Origin: Treponema sp.
GTDB taxonomy: Bacteria > Spirochaetota > Spirochaetia > Treponematales > Treponemataceae
DNA: 64,000 bases
Assembly (NCBI GenBank): GCA_016281495.1
Contig: JAEEIU010000046.1
Span: 1-64,000, forward strand
Direction: 5' to 3'
The position numbers were made by a program, and so were the translations under genes. The notes below the pieces were generated by a model. The model saw only the letters and a program-made list of their open reading frames with translations. It was not told the DNA's origin and made no database searches. Position 1 is the first letter of the stretch. Every line of letters starts with the position of its first letter. Of the stretch, positions 4,507-14,498 are shown in pieces.

Positions 4507-6390
4507 ATGAAAGCAGTGAAAGCTCACCTTTTTTTTATAGTCTCAATCCTCATCCTTTTTTCCGGATGCAAGGGAAAGGATAAAGTTGAAGAACCCAACT
4601 CCAGTTCCGAGGCCATGGCAACAGTAAATTCGGAAATCACATACAGCAATATACCTGACAGTTTCCCGTCCGACTGGCAAAGTGACGACAAAATGATTAA
4701 GTTTTACATTGGCTCTAAAGACAAAAGCGGTATGACTGCCAACTACCAGCTTTTCTGCGGAAACGGAAGGGCTTTTGCAAGCGGACTTTTAAGACATTCT
4801 TACGGAGGAATAGATGAAGATGGAAATGTCCGCCATCAGTTCATCCTGCTTGAATCCCCTGATGAAGACAAAATTGATTTTTCTGCATCCGACGGTCCTG
4901 ATGAAAAAAAGCAGGCCATACTGGACTATCTCTTCCCCGACGGAAAGGACTGTATGATTGAATACATGCCTGACTATATGAACCTGGACAATAAGGGTGC
5001 CTTTGTCTACAAGGACTCTGCCTTTTACTTAAGAGCGTACACACAGGACCTTGCTGAATTTTCCGACACCATTATTGAAGGACTTCCCGCAACCTACCTT
5101 GGGAGAAAATTGTACACGCCCAAGGACAGGACTTGCGTTTATTCCAGGCCGGATGTAACGAGCGAAAAAATACCGGTCAAAAACATGAGCTGGCAGGCCT
5201 ACTCCAAAGACAAAAAAGTCAGGCGGCTTTATGATGATGGAACCCAACTTTTTGACTGGTACAGAGGAATTGAAATCACGGTGCTGGGAAGAACCAAGGA
5301 TTTCTATAAGGTTAACGGAAAGGAAAACAACTGGTATTATGTTGAAAAATATTCAAATCACGGCTGGGTTTTCGGAGGCGACATAGAGCCTTGGGACAAT
5401 TCACTGACGGATGAATACGGAAATTCTATCATTGAAAATGGAGTCAAGGACGGACTGATCGAGCTTAGCGAGGTTGACTATTCATCCATCCCCGACGACC
5501 TGGCTGAAATCACTTTGGGTGAGGACGACGGTTCTGCAATCTACTACAACGACGATGTTATTTATCTTGCCTACCCCTACTACTGCAATGCCTTTGCAAA
5601 ATATGACAGGAGCAGAATGGCCTACGACAAAGACGGATTCATGAAATTCAAGTACGGGCCCGGCGAAAACGACAGCTATCTTTTTATCATGGGAGGCCAG
5701 ATAAACCAGCGTTTTACAAACTTTAAGAATGACGGTGCCTTAAGCTACAGGGATGAAGAGGACGATGACCTTATGAGGTACCACAGCTATTACTTTAAGT
5801 CCATTTCGGCAAGCTCATCCTATTCTGAAACTCTTGGAGGAAGAAAAGTCGTCTATGAGCCTGAGAACCTTGAGAAGTGCTTTGAGATTGGCTGCAAGTG
5901 CCATCCCTACTGGTGGAACTACTCGCACATTCCCTGGGTTGAAGGAGCCGAGGGGAACGGAATCGGAGAATCAATCACGGTTGAGTTTACTGAGGATATG
6001 GCTGGCATGTCTGTCTTAAACGGATATACCGACATCAACAAGCTCAAGCTCTACAAGGAAAATTCCAGGCTCAAGGAAGTGCGGATGGACGACCTTGTTA
6101 ACGGAGATTCCTGGACGGTTAGTTTCGACGACAAGGTTTACTTCAACTACATAACCTTCCCCAAAAAGACGACCAAAATCAAGATGACCATAAAGAGCGT
6201 CTATGATGGAACCAAGTATTCCGACACCTGTGTCTCCGCAATCATCCCTAGCCCGACTAATCCAGTGGCCGCGAATTCAGATGATGACAAGCAATACAGA
6301 AAGCAAGTCTACGAGGATTTCAAGAGGGTCATGAGGGACTGCGATTTAGTTACGGCGGAGGAGCTGGTTAAAAGGCTTATGGAAGATTGA
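4507..6390 (+). CDS. Surface or periplasmic lipoprotein with SH3-like and NADase-type glycan-binding-like domains
   Basis: A 627-residue protein with a lipoprotein signal ending LFSG-C21. Around residues 205-300 is an SH3-like segment (CVYSRPDVTS early, a Trp-Tyr pair and HGWVFGGDIEPW at its end), a fold often used for peptidoglycan contact. Residues about 435-580 include WVEGAEGNGIGESITVEF and LNGYTDINKLKLYKENSR, which resemble the glycan-binding domain found beside bacterial NADase-type toxins. There is no catalytic domain that I recognise. AGGAGG precedes the ATG. Domain names are from memory of the families; the overall role is unknown. Confidence 0.7.
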   Translation: MKAVKAHLFFIVSILILFSGCKGKDKVEEPNSSSEAMATVNSEITYSNIPDSFPSDWQSDDKMIKFYIGSKDKSGMTANYQLFCGNGRAFASGLLRHSYGGIDEDGNVRHQFILLESPDEDKIDFSASDGPDEKKQAILDYLFPDGKDCMIEYMPDYMNLDNKGAFVYKDSAFYLRAYTQDLAEFSDTIIEGLPATYLGRKLYTPKDRTCVYSRPDVTSEKIPVKNMSWQAYSKDKKVRRLYDDGTQLFDWYRGIEITVLGRTKDFYKVNGKENNWYYVEKYSNHGWVFGGDIEPWDNSLTDEYGNSIIENGVKDGLIELSEVDYSSIPDDLAEITLGEDDGSAIYYNDDVIYLAYPYYCNAFAKYDRSRMAYDKDGFMKFKYGPGENDSYLFIMGGQINQRFTNFKNDGALSYRDEEDDDLMRYHSYYFKSISASSSYSETLGGRKVVYEPENLEKCFEIGCKCHPYWWNYSHIPWVEGAEGNGIGESITVEFTEDMAGMSVLNGYTDINKLKLYKENSRLKEVRMDDLVNGDSWTVSFDDKVYFNYITFPKKTTKIKMTIKSVYDGTKYSDTCVSAIIPSPTNPVAANSDDDKQYRKQVYEDFKRVMRDCDLVTAEELVKRLMED

Positions 6391-6436
6391 TTAATAATAA
6401 TCTAAATGAAAACAATAGATTTTAGCGAGGTTGAAT

Positions 6437-7999
6437 ATGAATAACAGAAAAAGCGGTGTTTTGCTGCACTTGACGTCCCTCCCGGGAAAAGAAGGAATCG
6501 GAACATTGGGAAAAGAGGCCTATTCTTTTGCGGACTGGCTTCACAGGGGAAATCAGACCTTATGGCAGGTTCTTCCACTTGGTCCCACAGGCTACGGAGA
6601 CAGTCCCTATGCGAGTTTTTCCACATTTGCGGGAAATCCCCTTTTGATTGATTTGGATGACCTTGTTGAACGGGGATGGGCAAAGGCTGAGGACGTCGTG
6701 GTTGCCGATTACATCAAGGAAGAAGGTCCGGTTGATTTTGGCTCCGTCGTATGGTGGAAGACTCCTGTTTTATATTCATGCGCATCATACTTCCTCCGAA
6801 ACGTAAAGCGCAAGGATTATCTTCGCTACGAGAAATTCAAAGAAGACAACAAAAAGTGGCTGGACAGCTTTGCAAGCTTTATGAGCATCAAGCGTTTTTA
6901 CGACGCAAAGGCCCAGGAAGAAAAAGTTGAGGGACCTGCAAGCACATGGAACAGATACTGGCCCAAGGACCTGGCATCCCACAAAGAGGAGGCTGTGGAA
7001 AAATGGAACCGTGACCATGAGGAAGAAATTGAAGAGATTAAGGCCATTCAGTTTTTCTTTAGGGAACAGTGGAGCGCCTTAAAAAAATACGTCAACTCCC
7101 TGGGCATACAGATCATAGGAGACATACCGATTTTCGTCGCATCTGATTCCGCAGACCTGTGGTCAAACCAAAGCCTCTTCCAGTTTGACAGAAAGAAACT
7201 TGAGCAGAAAACATGCGCCGGCGTTCCACCGGATTACTTCAGCGAGACAGGCCAGCTCTGGGGGAATCCCCTCTACGACTGGACCGCCATGAAGGCTGAC
7301 GGTTACCTCTGGTGGATGGAAAGAATCAAAAACATGCTTACCCTTGTGGACATAGTGCGAATCGACCATTTCCGCGGCTTTGATGAATACTGGCAGATTC
7401 CCTTTGGCGCTGAAAATGCTATCGGCGGTGAATGGAAAAAAGGTCCCGGCAAAGCACTGTTTGACACAATAAAAAAGGAACTGGGAAAACTCCCCATCAT
7501 CGCAGAAGACCTTGGAGTTCTTACCCCAACCGTAGAAAAGCTCCGTGATACAGTCGGCTTCCCCGGAATGAAAATACTCCAGTTTGCATTTGACGGAAAC
7601 GAATGGTCAGAAGGAAGCGCAGACAACGCATACCTCCCCCACAACATATCAAACCCCAACTCCGTCATTTACACTGGAACCCACGACAACGACACAAGCA
7701 TGGGCTGGCTTGAAAAAGGCGGAGACGGACTCAAGAGAAACCTCTGCAACTACTTTAACCTCTACGAAGACATCGACAACATGACTGTGGCACATACACT
7801 CATACGTGCGGCATTCGCTTCTACGGCGGACATTTGCATTGTTCCGCTGCAGGATGTCTACAGTCTGGGAAGTGACGCAAGGATGAACACACCTTCAACT
7901 GCGGCCGGCAACTGGAGCTGGAGGATGCCATACGGTCTCACGGACGAACGCGGTGCCTCAGAACTGGCATGGTATTCCAAATTGTACAGAAGGAATTAG
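6437..7999 (+). CDS. malQ: 4-alpha-glucanotransferase (amylomaltase, GH77)
   Basis: The 520-residue enzyme moves alpha-1,4-glucan chains between maltodextrins in the cytoplasm. It keeps the GH77 signature: LLHLTSLPG at the start, the nucleophile region VRIDHFRGFDEYW (about residue 305), the acid/base segment IIAEDLGVLTP (about 356) and the third acidic residue in GTHDNDTSMGW (about 416). ATG 6437 follows GCGAGG at good spacing; an in-frame TTG six bases earlier is less likely. No other maltodextrin genes are adjacent, and the lipoprotein gene 47 bp upstream shows no obvious link. Confidence 0.95.
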   Translation: MNNRKSGVLLHLTSLPGKEGIGTLGKEAYSFADWLHRGNQTLWQVLPLGPTGYGDSPYASFSTFAGNPLLIDLDDLVERGWAKAEDVVVADYIKEEGPVDFGSVVWWKTPVLYSCASYFLRNVKRKDYLRYEKFKEDNKKWLDSFASFMSIKRFYDAKAQEEKVEGPASTWNRYWPKDLASHKEEAVEKWNRDHEEEIEEIKAIQFFFREQWSALKKYVNSLGIQIIGDIPIFVASDSADLWSNQSLFQFDRKKLEQKTCAGVPPDYFSETGQLWGNPLYDWTAMKADGYLWWMERIKNMLTLVDIVRIDHFRGFDEYWQIPFGAENAIGGEWKKGPGKALFDTIKKELGKLPIIAEDLGVLTPTVEKLRDTVGFPGMKILQFAFDGNEWSEGSADNAYLPHNISNPNSVIYTGTHDNDTSMGWLEKGGDGLKRNLCNYFNLYEDIDNMTVAHTLIRAAFASTADICIVPLQDVYSLGSDARMNTPSTAAGNWSWRMPYGLTDERGASELAWYSKLYRRN

Positions 8000-8152
8000 A
8001 GGAGTTAAAATAGTTTGTTCATTATGCTTGTCCTAAGTAACATTCTCGACTTGATTCGAAATTTATGCACAAAAAAAACATGTCATAGATGCCGTTTCAA
8101 GTCGTGAATGACAATTTGTTTTTGTCAGGTACTTACGATTTACACCTATTTT

Positions 8153-9823
8153 TTAAGGCTTTAAAAATCCTCCGAAACACCATCCGACTGTTCCGTCCGG
8201 GATCCGCTTTGAATCCCTGTCTTTACCGCCAGGAAGAACCTCTACCTGGACCCAATTTGATGTTATTCCTTCGCTTACATCCTCTTTTCCTATCTTGATT
8301 ACCTTTACCGTAGTGTCTTTACTCATAGTTGTAATTACAGAACTATCGGCACTTTCACTTGCACGAAGCCTTAAGTTGCTGTCACAACGCAGGACAGAGC
8401 CAACTACAATACCATGACTTTCTTGCGGAATATCAGTGATAACGTCATTTTCCTCATTTTCTACCGTTTCATCATCATCGAGGAAAGCTGACCAGTCAAT
8501 GTCATTAAGAGCATCTAAATAAGAAGAATCCATTAATTCATTCCAATCATCATCTGACAAAACTGATTCAGTTTTTTTAGTTTCAAACGGTAATCCCTTA
8601 TTTGCAACATAAATCACAGCCGCTACCACACCTGCCAAAGCAACGGCCCCTATACCTATGCCAATGAAAAGCTTTTTCTTCTTGGGCGGAACTTTTCCTT
8701 CTTCATTTTCTTTTACATCACTAACCTTGGTATTTGCTTCATTGACTTGAGTTTCTTTTGGAACTTCACTTGATACAGGTTCTGCTTTGGGAGAATAATC
8801 TTTCGTTACATCGACACCTAGTGACTTGCCGCAATTCACACACATAGATGAAACTTCAGAAGAAACCTCTGTATAGCAGTATGGACAACAGTAACTTCCG
8901 GGATTATCCGTTTTCTCCGCAAAGATTCGTGAAGGAACTGATGCAAACTGATATCCATCCTTAAGGGAAATCGAGTTTATTTTCTCTTCCCGCTGGTTTT
9001 CTGTCTTTGCACTATATGCATTCATATTCTCAGGAATTACTTTTCCAGAATTGAGCCCGCCATTTTCAAGTTGTTTCTTTATTGAATAAATGTCGATATG
9101 AAGCTGATAATAAGTTGACAAATATCCATAATGATTTATGCAGTGTTTCCTTGCAAGTACATTAAAGAGAATCACAAAAATGGCCTCTCCAACAACACCT
9201 GCAAGAATAGTTATGATAATATTATCAGACAACAAGAAGACAGGTATAATTCCAGCAGCAAAACCTATGACTGCTCCAATTACACGATAAAACCATACAG
9301 TTCTGGATATGGAAGAATTCAACCCAGTTCCAAGTTTGACCAGATATTGATCTCCATATTTCGTGCTCTTTTCATCAACAGGTGATACTGTTTCTTTGCA
9401 GACAGAATATTTTACTATCGAAGCATTATTGATCATATCCAGGAAAGCAAGTGTTTTACCAAAATGCTTAACACAATATACATTAACAATTAGGGCTGCA
9501 ACAATAAAGGCAATCAGTATACAAGGAATAAATGGGGAAAGGAATTTTAAAATCGTAGAAATGATACCTTTGAATTTAAAGATTCCTATAGAGAAGAACA
9601 AGATAGACACACACAGACCAAGTCCAGCTCCAATTTTTAGAGCTAAACTAGTAGCAAGATCTTCAAGTCTTTTTATTTTTGTTTCAATCTCACTATTTGC
9701 CAATGATACAAACTTATTCCGGCAATATTCCGCATCTATCATTTTCATAGTGAATACTTGAATAACAATTCCTATACCGACTGATACCACAAAACTGATT
9801 ATTATGACAATTAGATTATCCAT
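8153..9823 (-). CDS. Membrane protein with zinc ribbon and C-terminal SH3b domain
   Basis: A 556-residue protein not assignable to a named family. The N-terminal 230 residues hold about five hydrophobic segments. A zinc ribbon follows at about 312-332 (CCPYC, then CVNCG), then a single strong membrane span near 385-405, an acidic linker, and a bacterial SH3b domain at about 470-556 (NLRLRASESADSSVI, then GWCFGGFLKP at the end). The topology suggests zinc ribbon inside and SH3b outside. AAGG precedes the ATG at normal spacing. The gene lies 11 bp after the repeat protein and is surely co-transcribed with it. Confidence 0.75.
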   Translation of the reverse strand: MDNLIVIIISFVVSVGIGIVIQVFTMKMIDAEYCRNKFVSLANSEIETKIKRLEDLATSLALKIGAGLGLCVSILFFSIGIFKFKGIISTILKFLSPFIPCILIAFIVAALIVNVYCVKHFGKTLAFLDMINNASIVKYSVCKETVSPVDEKSTKYGDQYLVKLGTGLNSSISRTVWFYRVIGAVIGFAAGIIPVFLLSDNIIITILAGVVGEAIFVILFNVLARKHCINHYGYLSTYYQLHIDIYSIKKQLENGGLNSGKVIPENMNAYSAKTENQREEKINSISLKDGYQFASVPSRIFAEKTDNPGSYCCPYCYTEVSSEVSSMCVNCGKSLGVDVTKDYSPKAEPVSSEVPKETQVNEANTKVSDVKENEEGKVPPKKKKLFIGIGIGAVALAGVVAAVIYVANKGLPFETKKTESVLSDDDWNELMDSSYLDALNDIDWSAFLDDDETVENEENDVITDIPQESHGIVVGSVLRCDSNLRLRASESADSSVITTMSKDTTVKVIKIGKEDVSEGITSNWVQVEVLPGGKDRDSKRIPDGTVGWCFGGFLKP

Positions 9824-9834
9824 TAAGCACCTTC

Positions 9835-12216
9835 CTATTCCTCATATTTCACTGATATCTTTTCCAAAGGAATTTCAAGTTCAGGCATGTTTTTAATGAA
9901 AGCCCTTTCATTACCTGTTGTTGCAAAAGTATCATCTGCTTTGTTATAATTACCATATTCAAGGTACACTTTAAGTAAATTGATTTTTGCGGTACCATTA
10001 TCGATTTTCTCCATCATACTTTGAGAAATACCTTCAAAAGATATTACCAACTCTGGTTTTGAAGACATTTCATAATAAACTCCTGAAATATAATTGTACT
10101 CCACAAGTCCCCACTTTCCTCTCATTAGTAATCTTTTAGGCTTTACAAGTTCTTTTCCGTTATTATCAATGATGTTGAATGATAAGTCATATAAAGAATA
10201 TCTTAATAACGCAAGTTTACCATTTGTTTCAACTAATTTTACACATCCGTCGTCACAATAGAATGCATTGTATATCGCAGTAGAAGATTTTTTACCAATA
10301 CCATTTTCCATGACGTTTATTGTCTGAGGATAGTTTTTTCCATTTCTCATTATAGGGTTTTCTAAAACTCTTGCATCATATTCTGTATAGAAAATATCCG
10401 TGACACTCGTGCGATATACAGCAACACCATCTACTAAATTAGCTTTTGAATTCAAACCTGACACAGAGATTTCCGGCCAATATGATGGAACAGGAAGATC
10501 CTTCCAATCATTCTTATAAGCTTTTGTATAACCAGCGTCAATAACTTCGATTACGTTTTTATATCTTTCAGATTCAGAATACTTTATCTCAGCTGTATAT
10601 GTGGCGGTCTTTTTGGCATAGTCAAGTGCTCCTTTCTTAAGCTTTCCAATAGTAAAGGCATAGCGGCCATATTCGGTTCCGAATTTCTCTGCATTAATTA
10701 AGAGATTTTTCCATTCATCATGCAGGACAAAATCATTAAACTTACCTTTACCAGGATTTCCATTTTTGATTGTTTCAGCCAATTCTGTATAATAGCCCTT
10801 AGCTTCCTCTTTTACTGATGAATCAAGATCTAATAATGTAATCTCATAGTAGGCATTAAGGGCATATGCCCACTGTTTTTTCTGCTCATAAGCTTTAGCT
10901 TTTTCCAACAAGGGTTTTATCATCTCCTTGTTTTTAGCAAGTTCTATTTCCTTACGCTCTTTTTCAACTTCAGCATTGGTTTTCTTACCTAAGCCCGCTT
11001 TTTCATTTGCCTCTCTTTCCAGCTCAACCTGTTTATTTGAAATAGTTCCTAACCCTGCTTTTTCGTTTGCCTTTCGTTCTTTTTCTACCTCGGCATTAGT
11101 CACTTTCCCCAGACCCGCTGCTTCATTCTTACTGCGTTCAGTCTCTACCTCTGCGTTTGTGAGTTTTCCCAATCCTGCCTTTTCGTTTGCGGCACGCTCT
11201 GCTCTTAAGATTTCCGCATTGGTAACTTTACCACGGCCTGCAGCTTCATTTTGTTTTCTTTCATTTTCAACCTCTGCATCGGTAAGCCTGCCGTATCCTT
11301 TCTTTTCATTTGCTGAACGTTCTGCATCAAACAATTCCTTTTCCAATGTGAGGAATTTTGATTTTGATTCAATACTGATTGTAGTATCTCTTGAAATACT
11401 GACAGCAGAAGCTATTGAAGAGAACAGAGCATCCACAAGATCACCAGAGCTTGATTTCTGAGGTTCCCATACAATCGAATCAATTACGACTGTAGAATTT
11501 GAGTTGAAGAATGACATATACTTTTTCTTTATTACCGTGGAATCATCAAAAAGAATTTTTGAAAGCGACTCCAGATTACTTTCATTTCTTATTTTTGATC
11601 CAACGGGAATTATAATGTAAAAAGATTCTGATTTATGCTTCTTATACAGTTTTTCAAATTCCTTCATCGAGTTGAATTCTTCTTTCTGCTGCTTGTACAG
11701 AGGATCTTTTGTTTTTTTAGTAAAATTATTCCAGTTGTTAAAATCATAATTATTGTACTGAACATTCAGGAATGCTACAGTATTTGGCTTTACTACTGAA
11801 ATCTTATCAAAAACATATGCTTTCCCATCATATTTAAAATCAATTTGAAAATCATCTTTATAGTAGCCACCTCTAGAATCAAATCCTATGTTGAGCCCCT
11901 CGCTCATAGGTGGATTTAAAGGATTAACAGAGACACCAAAACACTCAAAGATTTTATAAAAGTCAGCTGTACTACCATCCACGGTTGTAAAGACAGCAAA
12001 AGGAGATCCTGCTTTTACAAGGACTTGAGCATTATTCTTCTTGTACTTTTTGCAGAGATTCTGCAGTTCCTTTAGAGAAGAAAAGTCCGATTCAACGAAA
12101 TCCTTTTCATTCCCATTGTTCTTCTTGTCGAATGTCACTGTATCGGCAAACACAGCCACAGAAGCAACCACCATTGCACAGAATGCGATGATGAGTGAAA
12201 TAATTTTCTTTTTCAT
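9835..12216 (-). CDS. Secreted protein with six 20-residue tandem repeats
   Basis: A 793-residue protein with a Sec signal peptide (KKKIISLIIAF, ending near VFA-DT). Residues about 307-427 are six tandem repeats of the pattern G-x-G-K-x-T-N-A-E-V-E-x-E-R-x-x-N-E-K-A, five of 20 residues and one of 21; they are charged and probably helical. The flanking regions are unassigned; the C-terminal part mentions no known catalytic motif. The start is placed at the ATG complementary to 12214-12216 because AAGGA lies eight bases upstream; the ATG nine bases earlier would abut that signal. It heads a two-gene operon with the SH3b protein and has a strong promoter at 12374-12402. Confidence 0.75.
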   Translation of the reverse strand: MKKKIISLIIAFCAMVVASVAVFADTVTFDKKNNGNEKDFVESDFSSLKELQNLCKKYKKNNAQVLVKAGSPFAVFTTVDGSTADFYKIFECFGVSVNPLNPPMSEGLNIGFDSRGGYYKDDFQIDFKYDGKAYVFDKISVVKPNTVAFLNVQYNNYDFNNWNNFTKKTKDPLYKQQKEEFNSMKEFEKLYKKHKSESFYIIIPVGSKIRNESNLESLSKILFDDSTVIKKKYMSFFNSNSTVVIDSIVWEPQKSSSGDLVDALFSSIASAVSISRDTTISIESKSKFLTLEKELFDAERSANEKKGYGRLTDAEVENERKQNEAAGRGKVTNAEILRAERAANEKAGLGKLTNAEVETERSKNEAAGLGKVTNAEVEKERKANEKAGLGTISNKQVELEREANEKAGLGKKTNAEVEKERKEIELAKNKEMIKPLLEKAKAYEQKKQWAYALNAYYEITLLDLDSSVKEEAKGYYTELAETIKNGNPGKGKFNDFVLHDEWKNLLINAEKFGTEYGRYAFTIGKLKKGALDYAKKTATYTAEIKYSESERYKNVIEVIDAGYTKAYKNDWKDLPVPSYWPEISVSGLNSKANLVDGVAVYRTSVTDIFYTEYDARVLENPIMRNGKNYPQTINVMENGIGKKSSTAIYNAFYCDDGCVKLVETNGKLALLRYSLYDLSFNIIDNNGKELVKPKRLLMRGKWGLVEYNYISGVYYEMSSKPELVISFEGISQSMMEKIDNGTAKINLLKVYLEYGNYNKADDTFATTGNERAFIKNMPELEIPLEKISVKYEE
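10936..11298 (-). repeat. Six tandem 60-bp coding repeats in the secreted protein gene
   Basis: Five units of 60 bp and one of 63 bp encode the G-x-G-K-x-T-N-A-E-V 20-residue repeat. The units differ at many codons while the peptide pattern is kept, so the array is old rather than freshly expanded. Copy number could still vary between strains. Confidence 0.85.
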
Positions 12217-12357
12217 GTTAACCATCCTTATAAAAGAGTTTATATGTTTATTCTACTACCGCACTATGTCATTTCATGCAACACTAAGAAAGAAAATTAA
12301 AAATAATTCAAAAAGCCAAGTGAATTTTGAAAAAAACTTTCAATAGCATTTCAATAA

Positions 12358-12394
12358 ATGTGTTATTACACATATTATAAATCCAATAACACAT
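12358..12394. promoter_or_regulatory. Probable operator of the XRE regulator
   Basis: Perfect 10-bp inverted arms ATGTGTTATT (12358-12367) and AATAACACAT (12385-12394), spaced by 17 bp, flank the -10 box of the minus-strand promoter. An additional ACACAT directly after the left arm makes a second, tighter ATGTGT-N4-ACACAT palindrome. Position between the two divergent genes suggests that the XRE protein binds here. Confidence 0.65.
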
Positions 12395-12402
12395 AAAGTC
12401 AA
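12374..12402 (-). promoter_or_regulatory. Promoter of the repeat-protein operon
   Basis: On the minus strand, TTGACT (complement of 12397-12402), a 17-bp spacer and a consensus TATAAT (complement of 12374-12379). One arm of the operator lies in the spacer and the other just downstream of the -10 box, so regulator binding should block the promoter. Confidence 0.75.
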
Positions 12403-12437
12403 CTTTCAATTACACACTTTTTGTATTCTTGAATATT

Positions 12438-12800
12438 ATGAAAGAAAAGAACAAATTATTCCGGGAAAGACTTTTAGACGAGTTGAATTATCAGGGCCTG
12501 TCAAAAATTGATTTTGCAGAGCGGATTGGTATCAGTATAAACACACTCAATATGTATCTTTACCGAGGATCAATTCCTGCTGCGGATGTTGCGGTAAAAA
12601 TGGCAGCCGCCTTAAACACCACAACCGAATATTTAATAACAGGAAAAGATTTATCCACACCATCTTCTCAATCTGGCACAAAAGATGACTGGCAAAAGAA
12701 AGAAATCATACGCATCATCAATTCTCTGTCATCTTCCCAACTTAAGAGTTTTCTTGACATCGCTCGTGCATATAAAACCGGGGTTATATCAGATACTTAA
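12438..12800 (+). CDS. XRE-family helix-turn-helix regulator
   Basis: A 120-residue protein with an N-terminal HTH domain at about residues 10-65: SKIDFAERIGISINTLNMYL is the helix-turn-helix, followed by IPAADVAVKMAAALNTTTEYL, the usual end of the domain. The C-terminal 45 residues are helical and may dimerise. ATG 12438 is chosen over a TTG nine bases earlier; neither has a clear ribosome site. It is divergent from the secreted repeat-protein operon and shares its 222-bp control region, which contains symmetric repeats. Confidence 0.85.
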   Translation: MKEKNKLFRERLLDELNYQGLSKIDFAERIGISINTLNMYLYRGSIPAADVAVKMAAALNTTTEYLITGKDLSTPSSQSGTKDDWQKKEIIRIINSLSSSQLKSFLDIARAYKTGVISDT

Positions 12801-12805
12801 ACTAG

Positions 12806-12874
12806 TTACATCAGTCTTTTTGAAGAAATGGAAGCCAAGTGATTTTTTTCATCTTCCTCGCCGACTTGACCCAT
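12806..12874 (-). other. 22-codon mini-ORF opening the third, partial argG-unit copy
   Basis: An ATG with AAGGA ten bases upstream opens a 22-residue frame beginning MGQVGEEDEK. The first six residues equal those of the mini-ORF at 13002-13070, after which similarity to the argG C-terminus stops. Whether it is translated is unknown. Confidence 0.25.
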
Positions 12875-13064
12875 CGCTACCATTTCCTTAATCGTACTAA
12901 CCGCTTACCATATAGCAACGAGCCCGCTTGTGGGGGACAAGCGGGCTGCAAGTCGGCGGTGCTTGCTCCCTTGGGTCGCAACCACTAAAGCATGTAATCG
13001 TTTACTCTGTAGGCCTTTTCTTAAACGATTTACTCTCTAAGATGGCCTGTCCCTCGCCAACTTG
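12869..13064 (-). repeat. Second 196-bp unit: argG 3'-end copy plus structured element (unit B)
   Basis: Reading the minus strand from 13064, the unit starts with a copy of the last 20 argG codons and its stop. Next come stem-loop 1 (12959-12985, loop GACCCAAGGGA), the segment GCCGACTTG, stem-loop 2 (12921-12947, 11-bp stem, loop CCCCC) and a linker ending GATGGGT. It aligns without length change to unit A. Relative to argG, 13 codons differ, 11 of them synonymous. Both stems keep pairing although their bases differ from unit A. A further 13 bp of the next copy (12856-12868) follow before similarity ends. Confidence 0.8.
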
Positions 13065-13070
13065 ACCCAT
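13002..13070 (-). other. 22-codon mini-ORF repeating the ArgG C-terminus
   Basis: ATG 13070 with AAGGA ten bases upstream opens a frame encoding MGQVGEGQAIL, then ESKSFKKRPTE and stop, nearly the exact ArgG C-terminus (argG has V for L and A for S). It is either a translated small peptide or simply a copied gene end. Confidence 0.35.
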
Positions 13071-13260
13071 CGTAATCTTTTCCTTAATTGTGCTGATTGT
13101 TCACTGTATAGTAATGAGGCCTCCTGCACGGGGGCAGGAGGCCTGCAAGTTGGAGGAGACTGCTCCCTTGGTCGCAGCCTCTTTTAATTGTAATCTTTTA
13201 CTCGGTTGGTCTCTTTTTGAAGGCCTTGCTCTCTACTATGGCCTGACCTTCGCCAACTTG
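13065..13260 (-). repeat. First 196-bp unit: argG 3' end plus structured element (unit A)
   Basis: The unit begins inside argG at codon CAA of QVGEGQ and runs through the stop codon. It continues through stem-loop 1 (13156-13181, stem GAGGCTGC/GCAGTCTC, loop GACCAAGGGA), CCAACTTG, stem-loop 2 (13117-13144, 11-bp stem, loop CCCCGT) and the linker. CCAACTTG (13146-13153) is complementary to the CAAGTTGG that opens unit B; in unit B the matching pair is GCCGACTTG with CAAGTCGGC, so this long-range helix also co-varies. No U-run follows stem-loop 2, so it is not an ordinary terminator. Confidence 0.8.
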
Positions 13261-14463
13261 CTGCTCCATCATGGCCCTAACCTTAAGTGGAAGGCCGAAC
13301 AGTGTGATGAAGCCCTGGGCGTCTTTGTGGTCGTAGAGGTCGCCGGTCTTGAAGCTGGCTATGCTTTCGTTGTAGAGGCTGTATTTTGAGGCGCTTCCTG
13401 CTCCCCTGATTGCTCCCTTGCACAGCTTGACTTTTGCCCAGCCGGTTACTGTTTCTTCTGTCTTGTCTACAAATGCCATGCAGCTGTCAAAGAGTGTGGT
13501 AAACCATTTGCCGTCATAAATCAGCTCGGCAACCTTTACTGAAAGCTGCTGCTTGTAGTGGTATGTATCGCGGTCAAGGCATATGTGGTCCATCATCCTG
13601 TGCGCAAAGTACAGGATTGCTCCACCCGGGGTTTCGTAGACTCCGCGGCTCTTCATTCCGACGCAGCGGTTCTCGCAGATGTCTACAAGACCAACACCGT
13701 TTCTTCCGCCGATTTCATTCAGGGTTGTAAGGAGTTCAAGAGCTCCCATCTTCTTGTCGTTTACGGCAACCGGGATTCCCTTTACAAAGTCAATCTTTAC
13801 ATACTCGCCTTCATCAGGGGCTTCTTCCGGAACTGTGGTGTTCTTGAGCATGTGCTTGTACTGAGGCTCATTTTCCGTCTTCTCAAGTTCAAGACCCTCG
13901 TGGCTCAAGTGCCAGATGTTTTCGTCGCGGCTGTATGACTGGTCCTTCTTCATCGGAACTTCAAGTCCACGCTGTTCAAGATATGCGATTTCTGCCTCAC
14001 GGCTGTCCATGTTCCACTTGTCATCCCTCCATGCGGCGATTACCTTGATGTCGGGTGCAAATGCCTTTATTGCAAGTTCAAAGCGAACCTGGTCGTTGCC
14101 CTTTCCTGTGGCACCGTGGCAGATTGCTACAGCCTTTTCCTGGCGTGCGTATTCAACAAGAATCTTTCCAATAAGAGGACGTGCGGTTGAAGTACCCAGA
14201 AGATATTCATCCTCATATACAGCATTTGCCTTAAGAGCAGGCCAGCAGTATTCGGTGATGTATTCCTCGCGGGCATCAACTACATAACATGCTGAGGCAC
14301 CTGTCTTGAGGGCACGGGCCTTGATTGCTTCCCAGTCATCGCCCTGTCCAAGATCAATGCAGACAGCGATAACGTCGTAGTCATAGTTTTCCTTGAGCCA
14401 CGGAATGATGACCGTAGTGTCAAGTCCTCCTGAATAAGCCAAAACAACCTTATCTTTTGCCAT
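13198..14463 (-). CDS. argG: Argininosuccinate synthase
   Basis: The 421-residue enzyme joins citrulline and aspartate with ATP, the penultimate step of arginine synthesis. The ATP-pyrophosphatase loop LAYSGGLDTT is at residues 8-17, and CHGATGKGNDQVRFE and the long C-terminal oligomerisation region are typical of the family. The start is the ATG complementary to 14461-14463, preceded by AAGAGG; an upstream in-frame ATG lacks such a site. No other arg gene is visible. Its last 20 codons belong to a 196-bp unit repeated downstream. It is divergent from the aspartokinase gene. Confidence 0.97.
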   Translation of the reverse strand: MAKDKVVLAYSGGLDTTVIIPWLKENYDYDVIAVCIDLGQGDDWEAIKARALKTGASACYVVDAREEYITEYCWPALKANAVYEDEYLLGTSTARPLIGKILVEYARQEKAVAICHGATGKGNDQVRFELAIKAFAPDIKVIAAWRDDKWNMDSREAEIAYLEQRGLEVPMKKDQSYSRDENIWHLSHEGLELEKTENEPQYKHMLKNTTVPEEAPDEGEYVKIDFVKGIPVAVNDKKMGALELLTTLNEIGGRNGVGLVDICENRCVGMKSRGVYETPGGAILYFAHRMMDHICLDRDTYHYKQQLSVKVAELIYDGKWFTTLFDSCMAFVDKTEETVTGWAKVKLCKGAIRGAGSASKYSLYNESIASFKTGDLYDHKDAQGFITLFGLPLKVRAMMEQQVGEGQAIVESKAFKKRPTE

Positions 14464-14498
14464 AAAAAAACCTCTTAAAAATGTAATTTTATGCATTC

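Follow-up and report, generated by a model that had tools for sequence, protein, structure and literature searches.

A putative accessory block in Treponema in which a CI-like regulator with a phased operator faces genes for an exported and a membrane protein

Between malQ and argG of a Treponema sp. genome, two large genes of one orientation face a divergent XRE-type regulator gene, which raises the question of whether they form part of a general envelope or stress system of treponemes or of an exchangeable accessory unit. By the window we mean the whole stretch of DNA that was analysed (64,000 nucleotides, contig JAEEIU010000046.1); the genome that carries it, G000, is 3.2 Mb in size. The following features define the locus:

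6431-7999 and 13198-14496: flanking genes malQ and argG, respectively
8000-13195, no strand assigned: inserted block between malQ and argG, delimited by blastn against the relative G009 (L138) and by GC contrast
8153-9823, minus strand: gene B, membrane protein with zinc ribbon and SH3b domain, 556 aa
9835-12225, minus strand: gene A, exported repeat protein, 796 aa
12438-12800, plus strand: gene R, XRE/CI-like regulator, 120 aa, HTH_3 and Phage_CI_repr matches over their cut-offs

A and B thus lie on the minus strand and R is divergent from both. A preliminary description had placed A and B 11 bp apart opposite an XRE gene, and the 9824-9834 gap and the HTH_3 match of R bear this out.

Comparison with G009, the closest relative found (malQ 96%, argG 98-99%, and lysC 97% identical), revealed a block of 5.2 kb at about 8000-13195. 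In blastn searches, G009 DNA matches the window up to position 8000 and again from 13196; malQ and argG are spaced by 58 bp there and the block is absent, i.e., the site is empty. The GC content of A, B, and R is 35-38%, versus 49% for malQ, argG, and lysC. Among 14 argG stretches compared, malQ adjoins argG in three (G009, G017, and G001). The block's open reading frames of at least 80 aa are A, B, and R, frames overlapping A or B, and frames reaching into malQ or argG; no integrase or structural gene is among them, and neither a methylase nor a known defence gene was found in the block. Across the window, Rfam gave 0 matches over the gathering score.

Two further observations concern the surroundings of the block. 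Beside argG, a 196-bp unit consisting of the argG 3′ end and a hairpin is repeated (12846-13064 and 13165-13260, ca. 74% identity), and one displaced copy is still readable as the argG C-terminus. The 400-bp stretch that holds these argG-like repeats has no second copy in the genome, and the repeats may mark an old insertion hot spot. Before malQ, positions 4507-6390 encode a lipoprotein-like protein with an NADase-type discoidin (glycan-binding) domain, whose G009 counterpart (45% over 282 aa) occupies the same place.

A Sec-type signal peptide, recognized by eye, covers residues 1 to about 27 of A; behind it come two related N-terminal modules, the repeats, a TPR-like hairpin with a beta stretch, and a further beta region at the C-terminus:

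10951-11310, minus strand: six 20-residue repeats (residues about 306-425), five found by pattern and the first, degenerate copy by eye
10513-10938, minus strand: TPR-like hairpin and beta stretch (residues 430-571), from the structure model, pLDDT mostly 60-88

The export signal and the six repeats of the preliminary description were therefore recovered. The repeats recur in relatives of A, in 2 to 10 copies by pattern; since, in addition, A and B are paired in two further genomes, the observation is more than chance. No Pfam or NCBIfam family was matched by A over cut-off, and Pfam revealed no FGE-sulfatase domain in it, while some of its relatives do carry this domain. The structure model, built from four sequences, has a mean pLDDT of 53 and is poor outside a few stretches. 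A Foldseek search with residues 520-783 returned nothing at E 0.001 or better; similarity of this segment to beta domains of binary-toxin translocases (best VIA, Z up to 7.7) was regarded as probable noise, given the low confidence of the region and rmsd values of 3.4-5.5. Searches of PDB sequences with A, B, and R yielded nothing useful.

Matches of some kind to A were found in 60 of 200 genomes of the genus, mostly to its C-terminal half, the TPR-like/beta part being the most widely shared; the N-terminal half was found in G000, G105, and G184. The named records with A relatives are rumen-type Spirochaetaceae/Treponema metagenome bins. In polymorphic toxins the conservation pattern is the reverse, the C-terminal part not being the widely conserved one, and this reading of A was ruled out. 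Because FGE cargo is present in sister cassettes (see below), we also considered A as the target of a diversity-generating retroelement. This, too, was rejected: RVT_1 (reverse transcriptase) was found in one of five genomes searched (G093), on a contig other than that of its cassette, and had no match in G000.

For B, two regions could be delimited:

8816-8902, minus strand: zinc-ribbon-like stretch (residues 308-336) with two CxxC pairs, DZR sub-threshold
8159-8380, minus strand: SH3_3 domain (residues 482-555), Pfam E 1.9e-9, 38 bits over a cut-off of 27

Hydropathy indicates about six membrane segments, five N-terminal and one at residues 383-409. The membrane/ribbon/SH3b architecture proposed earlier for B is thus supported by the segments, by SH3_3, and by both CxxC pairs, which are kept in relatives, whereas the ribbon itself stays below the Pfam cut-off for DZR (12.9 bits of 27.3, E 0.13). 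The orientation proposed with it, ribbon inside and SH3b outside, is predicted from Lys/Arg-rich stretches. Outside SH3b, B has no Pfam or NCBIfam family over cut-off; the earlier assignment of both proteins to no known family accordingly holds for A and for this part of B, but not for the SH3_3 domain. The structure model (two sequences, mean pLDDT 39.5) is unusable except around SH3b. The membrane/ribbon part is present near full length in four of 200 genus genomes (G000, G105, G184, and G093). In G093 no SH3_3 was found in B, the domain there residing on a neighbouring lipoprotein, so SH3b is not constant in B. Matches of some kind, mostly to the ribbon, occur in 17 of the 200 genomes. In a family sample, the membrane/ribbon part matched in 11 of 274 genomes, in one of 20 genera. 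The SH3b part has many relatives among other proteins of the genus: B has 8, 14, and 11 matches in G000, G009, and G028, respectively, most of them to residues about 470-555, with the best 42-56% identical.

The regulator's listed frame opens at TTG 12429; the ATG at 12438 gives a protein of 120 aa that agrees with its relatives. R scores 38.6 bits with HTH_3 (E 1.1e-9, Pfam cut-off 23) and 25.9 bits with Phage_CI_repr (Pfam cut-off 22), and among phage regulator families it matches phrog_8 (E 1.7e-15). The NCBIfam RstR cut-off was not reached (31.2 of 80 bits). Pfam matched neither the C-terminal peptidase/oligomerisation domain of long CI proteins, in keeping with the length of R, nor a recognizable sensor domain. 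Near-full-length relatives (49% identity or more) are present in 22 of the 200 genus genomes, G000 included, and matches at E 1e-22 in 15 of 291 genomes of an order-wide sample, three of them outside the genus. The R loci are spread over several different chromosomal sites. Profile searches and structure prediction, suggested in the preliminary description as a check, therefore gave SH3_3, HTH_3, and Phage_CI_repr, but no family for A and weak models.

The region between R and A contains the following elements:

12374-12402 (read 12402-12374), minus strand: promoter of A-B, TTGACT-17-TATAAT, 11/12 consensus match at a conserved position
12359-12416, minus strand: operator array of TGTGTAATTG, TGTGTTATTG, and TGTGTAATAACACA, about 21-23 bp apart, from a four-genome alignment and 25 R loci with shuffles
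12226-12300, minus strand: leader before A with the element GCATGAAATGACATAGT, a related element being present in five other cassettes

A strong promoter had been claimed for the operon. The consensus match and the conservation of the region between genomes speak for it; the score alone proves little, since the scan found 20 promoter-like sites versus 16.8 (sd 4.1) in shuffled sequences. When R-cargo intergenic regions of four genomes were aligned, about 60 bp could be matched, comprising repeated half-sites of the TGTGTAAT type, a −35, and a −10; the same arrangement recurs beside more distant R relatives. We defined half-sites as TGTAAT or TGTTAT, required pairs to be spaced by 20-24 bp, and used dinucleotide shuffles as a control. 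A phased pair was found in 18 of 25 R loci (34 pairs in total), versus a mean of 0.16 loci and at most three in shuffles. Among controls, 3 of 202 other ORFs in the same loci had such a pair, as did 0 of 8 other XRE genes of G000, for which distances were measured upstream of the HTH match and not of the gene start. The 34-base form of the operator occurs in seven of the 200 genus genomes, once in each, and the reversed pattern in none; a regulon of R in trans was ruled out by the single such site in G000. In the window the half-sites overlap the A-B promoter, and repression is the simplest inference because they cover it.

The leader element (GCAT, purines, ATGA, AGAGT-like) was located upstream of the first cargo gene of six A/B-type cassettes, whichever type of regulator heads them (see below):

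L083:6235, L161:5359, L081:11207, L085:9745, L070:2638, and L009:3926: positions of the leader element

A conserved RNA hairpin was rejected as its explanation: among five leaders folded, that of G105 alone was clearly better than shuffles (z −3.86), and the leader before A in the window has no significant fold.

What stands behind R varies between loci:

G000 and G105: A and B
G093 and G083: repeat-FGE-SH3b lipoproteins
G125: FGE protein
G203 and G148: LRR lipoproteins
G097: fn3 lipoprotein
G279 and G346, also within the G189 operon: acyltransferases
G190: 8xMP membrane protein
G410: lipocalin-like lipoprotein
G034 and G135: REase-ARP, not envelope cargo
G088 and G073: FBP aldolase and NTPase-like protein, respectively, not envelope cargo

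The first cargo gene encodes an exported or membrane protein, as judged by a hydrophobic N-terminus, in 16 of 21 R loci versus 283 of 767 background ORFs (p 3e-4); the 21 are those of the 22 genus loci in which the first gene divergent from R was read, G189 and the three loci outside the genus not being among them. Only 10 of the 210 pairs among these first cargo proteins are similar at E 1e-3. The REase-ARP, FBP aldolase, and NTPase-like genes count against an all-envelope reading. In the REase-ARP loci (L125:8386-9150 and L130:6968-7738) the nuclease, as first cargo, is followed by exported small proteins. Elsewhere (L133:4915-7373 and L086:2603-4405), Cys-rich small proteins that are alike at the start lie beside genes that by eye resemble radical-SAM genes, one pair adjoining an R relative and the other near a B-like gene; they are possibly peptide-modification clusters.

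These distributions bear directly on the opening question. The A+B pair, whose neighbourhood the preliminary description had proposed to compare across treponemes, was seen in three genomes of the genus (G000, G105, and G184). Because B is rare, A and B were seen together in these three genomes, the block is missing from G009, and R relatives precede many unrelated genes, the A-B-R block looks like an exchangeable accessory island, and the same findings do not support a general, conserved system in place of the envelope or stress function suggested earlier. One might still propose that B senses the wall through SH3b, that A repairs or braces the envelope, and that R represses both until damage is sensed. 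The predicted A/B topology, the SH3_3 domain, and the regulated operon structure would fit such homeostasis, but a B found near full length in 4/200 genomes and absent from G009, R relatives that drive unrelated genes, and the lack of a recognizable sensor domain in R make it unlikely.

Regulators and cargo also appear in different combinations. At the gltP-radA site, the R proteins of G083 and G093 are 99% identical and their repeat-FGE-SH3b cargos 77% identical to each other. The G128 cargo at this site is 97% identical to that of G093, yet it is under another XRE, which has no detectable similarity to R (E 0.27) and is 100% identical to the XRE that precedes a B-like protein in G141. The flanks are 95-99% identical where compared (the G128 contig stops before radA), and from 69 bp ahead of the cargo start G128 again matches the DNA of both G083 and G093. 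A+B are preceded by R in G000 and G105, and by another XRE in G184. The genomes are largely draft assemblies of many contigs, and binning errors are a possible source of apparent exchange.

In the A family (33 ORFs, five of them at contig ends, with two each from G083 and G128), a divergent XRE lies upstream of 13 of the 28 ORFs with readable context versus 92 of 658 background ORFs, where three of the 13 (L104, L110, and L111) are in loci chosen through R or its operator, the A gene of G184 was counted as "other" despite its divergent upstream XRE, and the background includes loci chosen for R. The remaining 15 have no adjoining divergent XRE.

Taken together, the data make it fairly probable, in our judgement, that the block is an accessory chromosomal island in which a self-contained regulatory head (R and its operator) drives interchangeable, mostly envelope cargo, here A and B. 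At the sequence level, this reading is carried by R itself, the half-sites phased across the divergent promoter, the close spacing and shared direction of A and B, the empty site in G009, and the varied combinations of head and cargo. Its scope is limited by the non-envelope cargo, by the seven of 25 R loci without a phased pair and the 15 A-family genes without an adjoining XRE, both of which count against it, and by the weak models. More tentatively, a pool of heads and a pool of mostly envelope cargo might recombine at fixed chromosomal sites in rumen-type treponemes, perhaps via the conserved leader, giving switches of a heteroimmune kind, so that several surface cassettes could be carried per cell without cross-regulation.

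Under the head-and-cargo reading, dimers of R would occupy half-sites spaced by about two helical turns and so cover the promoter of A-B, probably that of R as well; if repression rather than activation is assumed, the cargo would stay silent or weakly expressed until the level of R drops. The Sec route would take A to the periplasm or the cell surface. B would sit in the inner membrane with its ribbon inside and SH3b in the periplasm, probably gripping peptidoglycan, and would work with A. Because the head would be a closed repressor-operator unit, a different XRE head could take its place with no harm to the cargo, and heads of this kind could drive other surface genes as well. The benefit would likely lie in altering the envelope conditionally and from strain to strain, as lysogenic conversion does, with phage, competitor, or host fibre as candidate partners.

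The resemblance of R to phage repressors suggests another origin, namely a decayed prophage or satellite, with R as its immunity repressor of the CI/RstR kind and A-B as leftover conversion genes. The Phage_CI_repr and phrog_8 matches, the low GC, and the repeated argG 3′-end-like fragments next to the block, which recall an old insertion site, agree with such a remnant. We nevertheless assign it little probability: no integrase or structural gene is found among block ORFs of at least 80 aa, R loci occupy several different chromosomal sites, and in viral contigs a peptide-pattern scan confirmed no relative of A or B and no exact copy of the leader element was found. A system against phages or competitors that acts in the envelope, by exclusion or as an effector with its immunity partner, would suit an accessory, patchy, and regulated locus, with REase-ARP in two R loci and 8xMP in one, but is very unlikely given 0 PADLOC families for A and 0 for B and a C-terminal part of A that is widely conserved, the reverse of polymorphic toxins.

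If the island with an exchangeable head is real, it would offer gut spirochetes a simple route to surface change, in which one regulator-operator head is combined with exchangeable envelope genes. The group concerned has little genetics, and a precise operator and repression are predicted here. The analysis also points to unnamed envelope protein families, namely that of A, marked by the 20-residue repeats, and that of the membrane/ribbon region in B. No description of the A-B-R module was found in the open-access papers searched. The core of the preliminary description survives, namely an exported and an envelope protein encoded together behind a divergent XRE gene, to which a conserved operator-promoter is now added, and no described system that fits was found.

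Several known systems share parts of this design. Like RptR (PMC12255303) and other repressors or controllers found in restriction systems and defence islands, R is a small DNA-binding regulator of accessory genes, and the REase-ARP nuclease in two R loci adds to the likeness; unlike them, the window block contains no methylase or known defence gene, and most R cargo is exported. B has the SH3_3 domain of SH3b proteins at its end, but combines it with a zinc ribbon and about six membrane segments and is encoded beside A. FGE domains have the C-type lectin fold and occur in lipoprotein targets of T. denticola retroelements, such as TvpA (PMC4891356). Sister cassettes resemble these Treponema surface lipoproteins in that FGE-sulfatase-domain proteins occur there together with SH3b and the 20-residue repeats also seen in A, while A has no FGE domain and G000 no RVT_1 match; the link to variable surface proteins covers the sister cassettes and not A itself. 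In the immunity regions of phages with CI/RstR repressors and multi-site operators, phage genes lie beside the repressor, whereas none lie beside R, the cargo is mostly envelope, and the RstR cut-off is missed. The organization is nevertheless alike: a small HTH protein, divergent genes, and several phased sites over a promoter. In heteroimmune phages, whole regulator-operator blocks are exchanged, which resembles the exchange of heads observed here.
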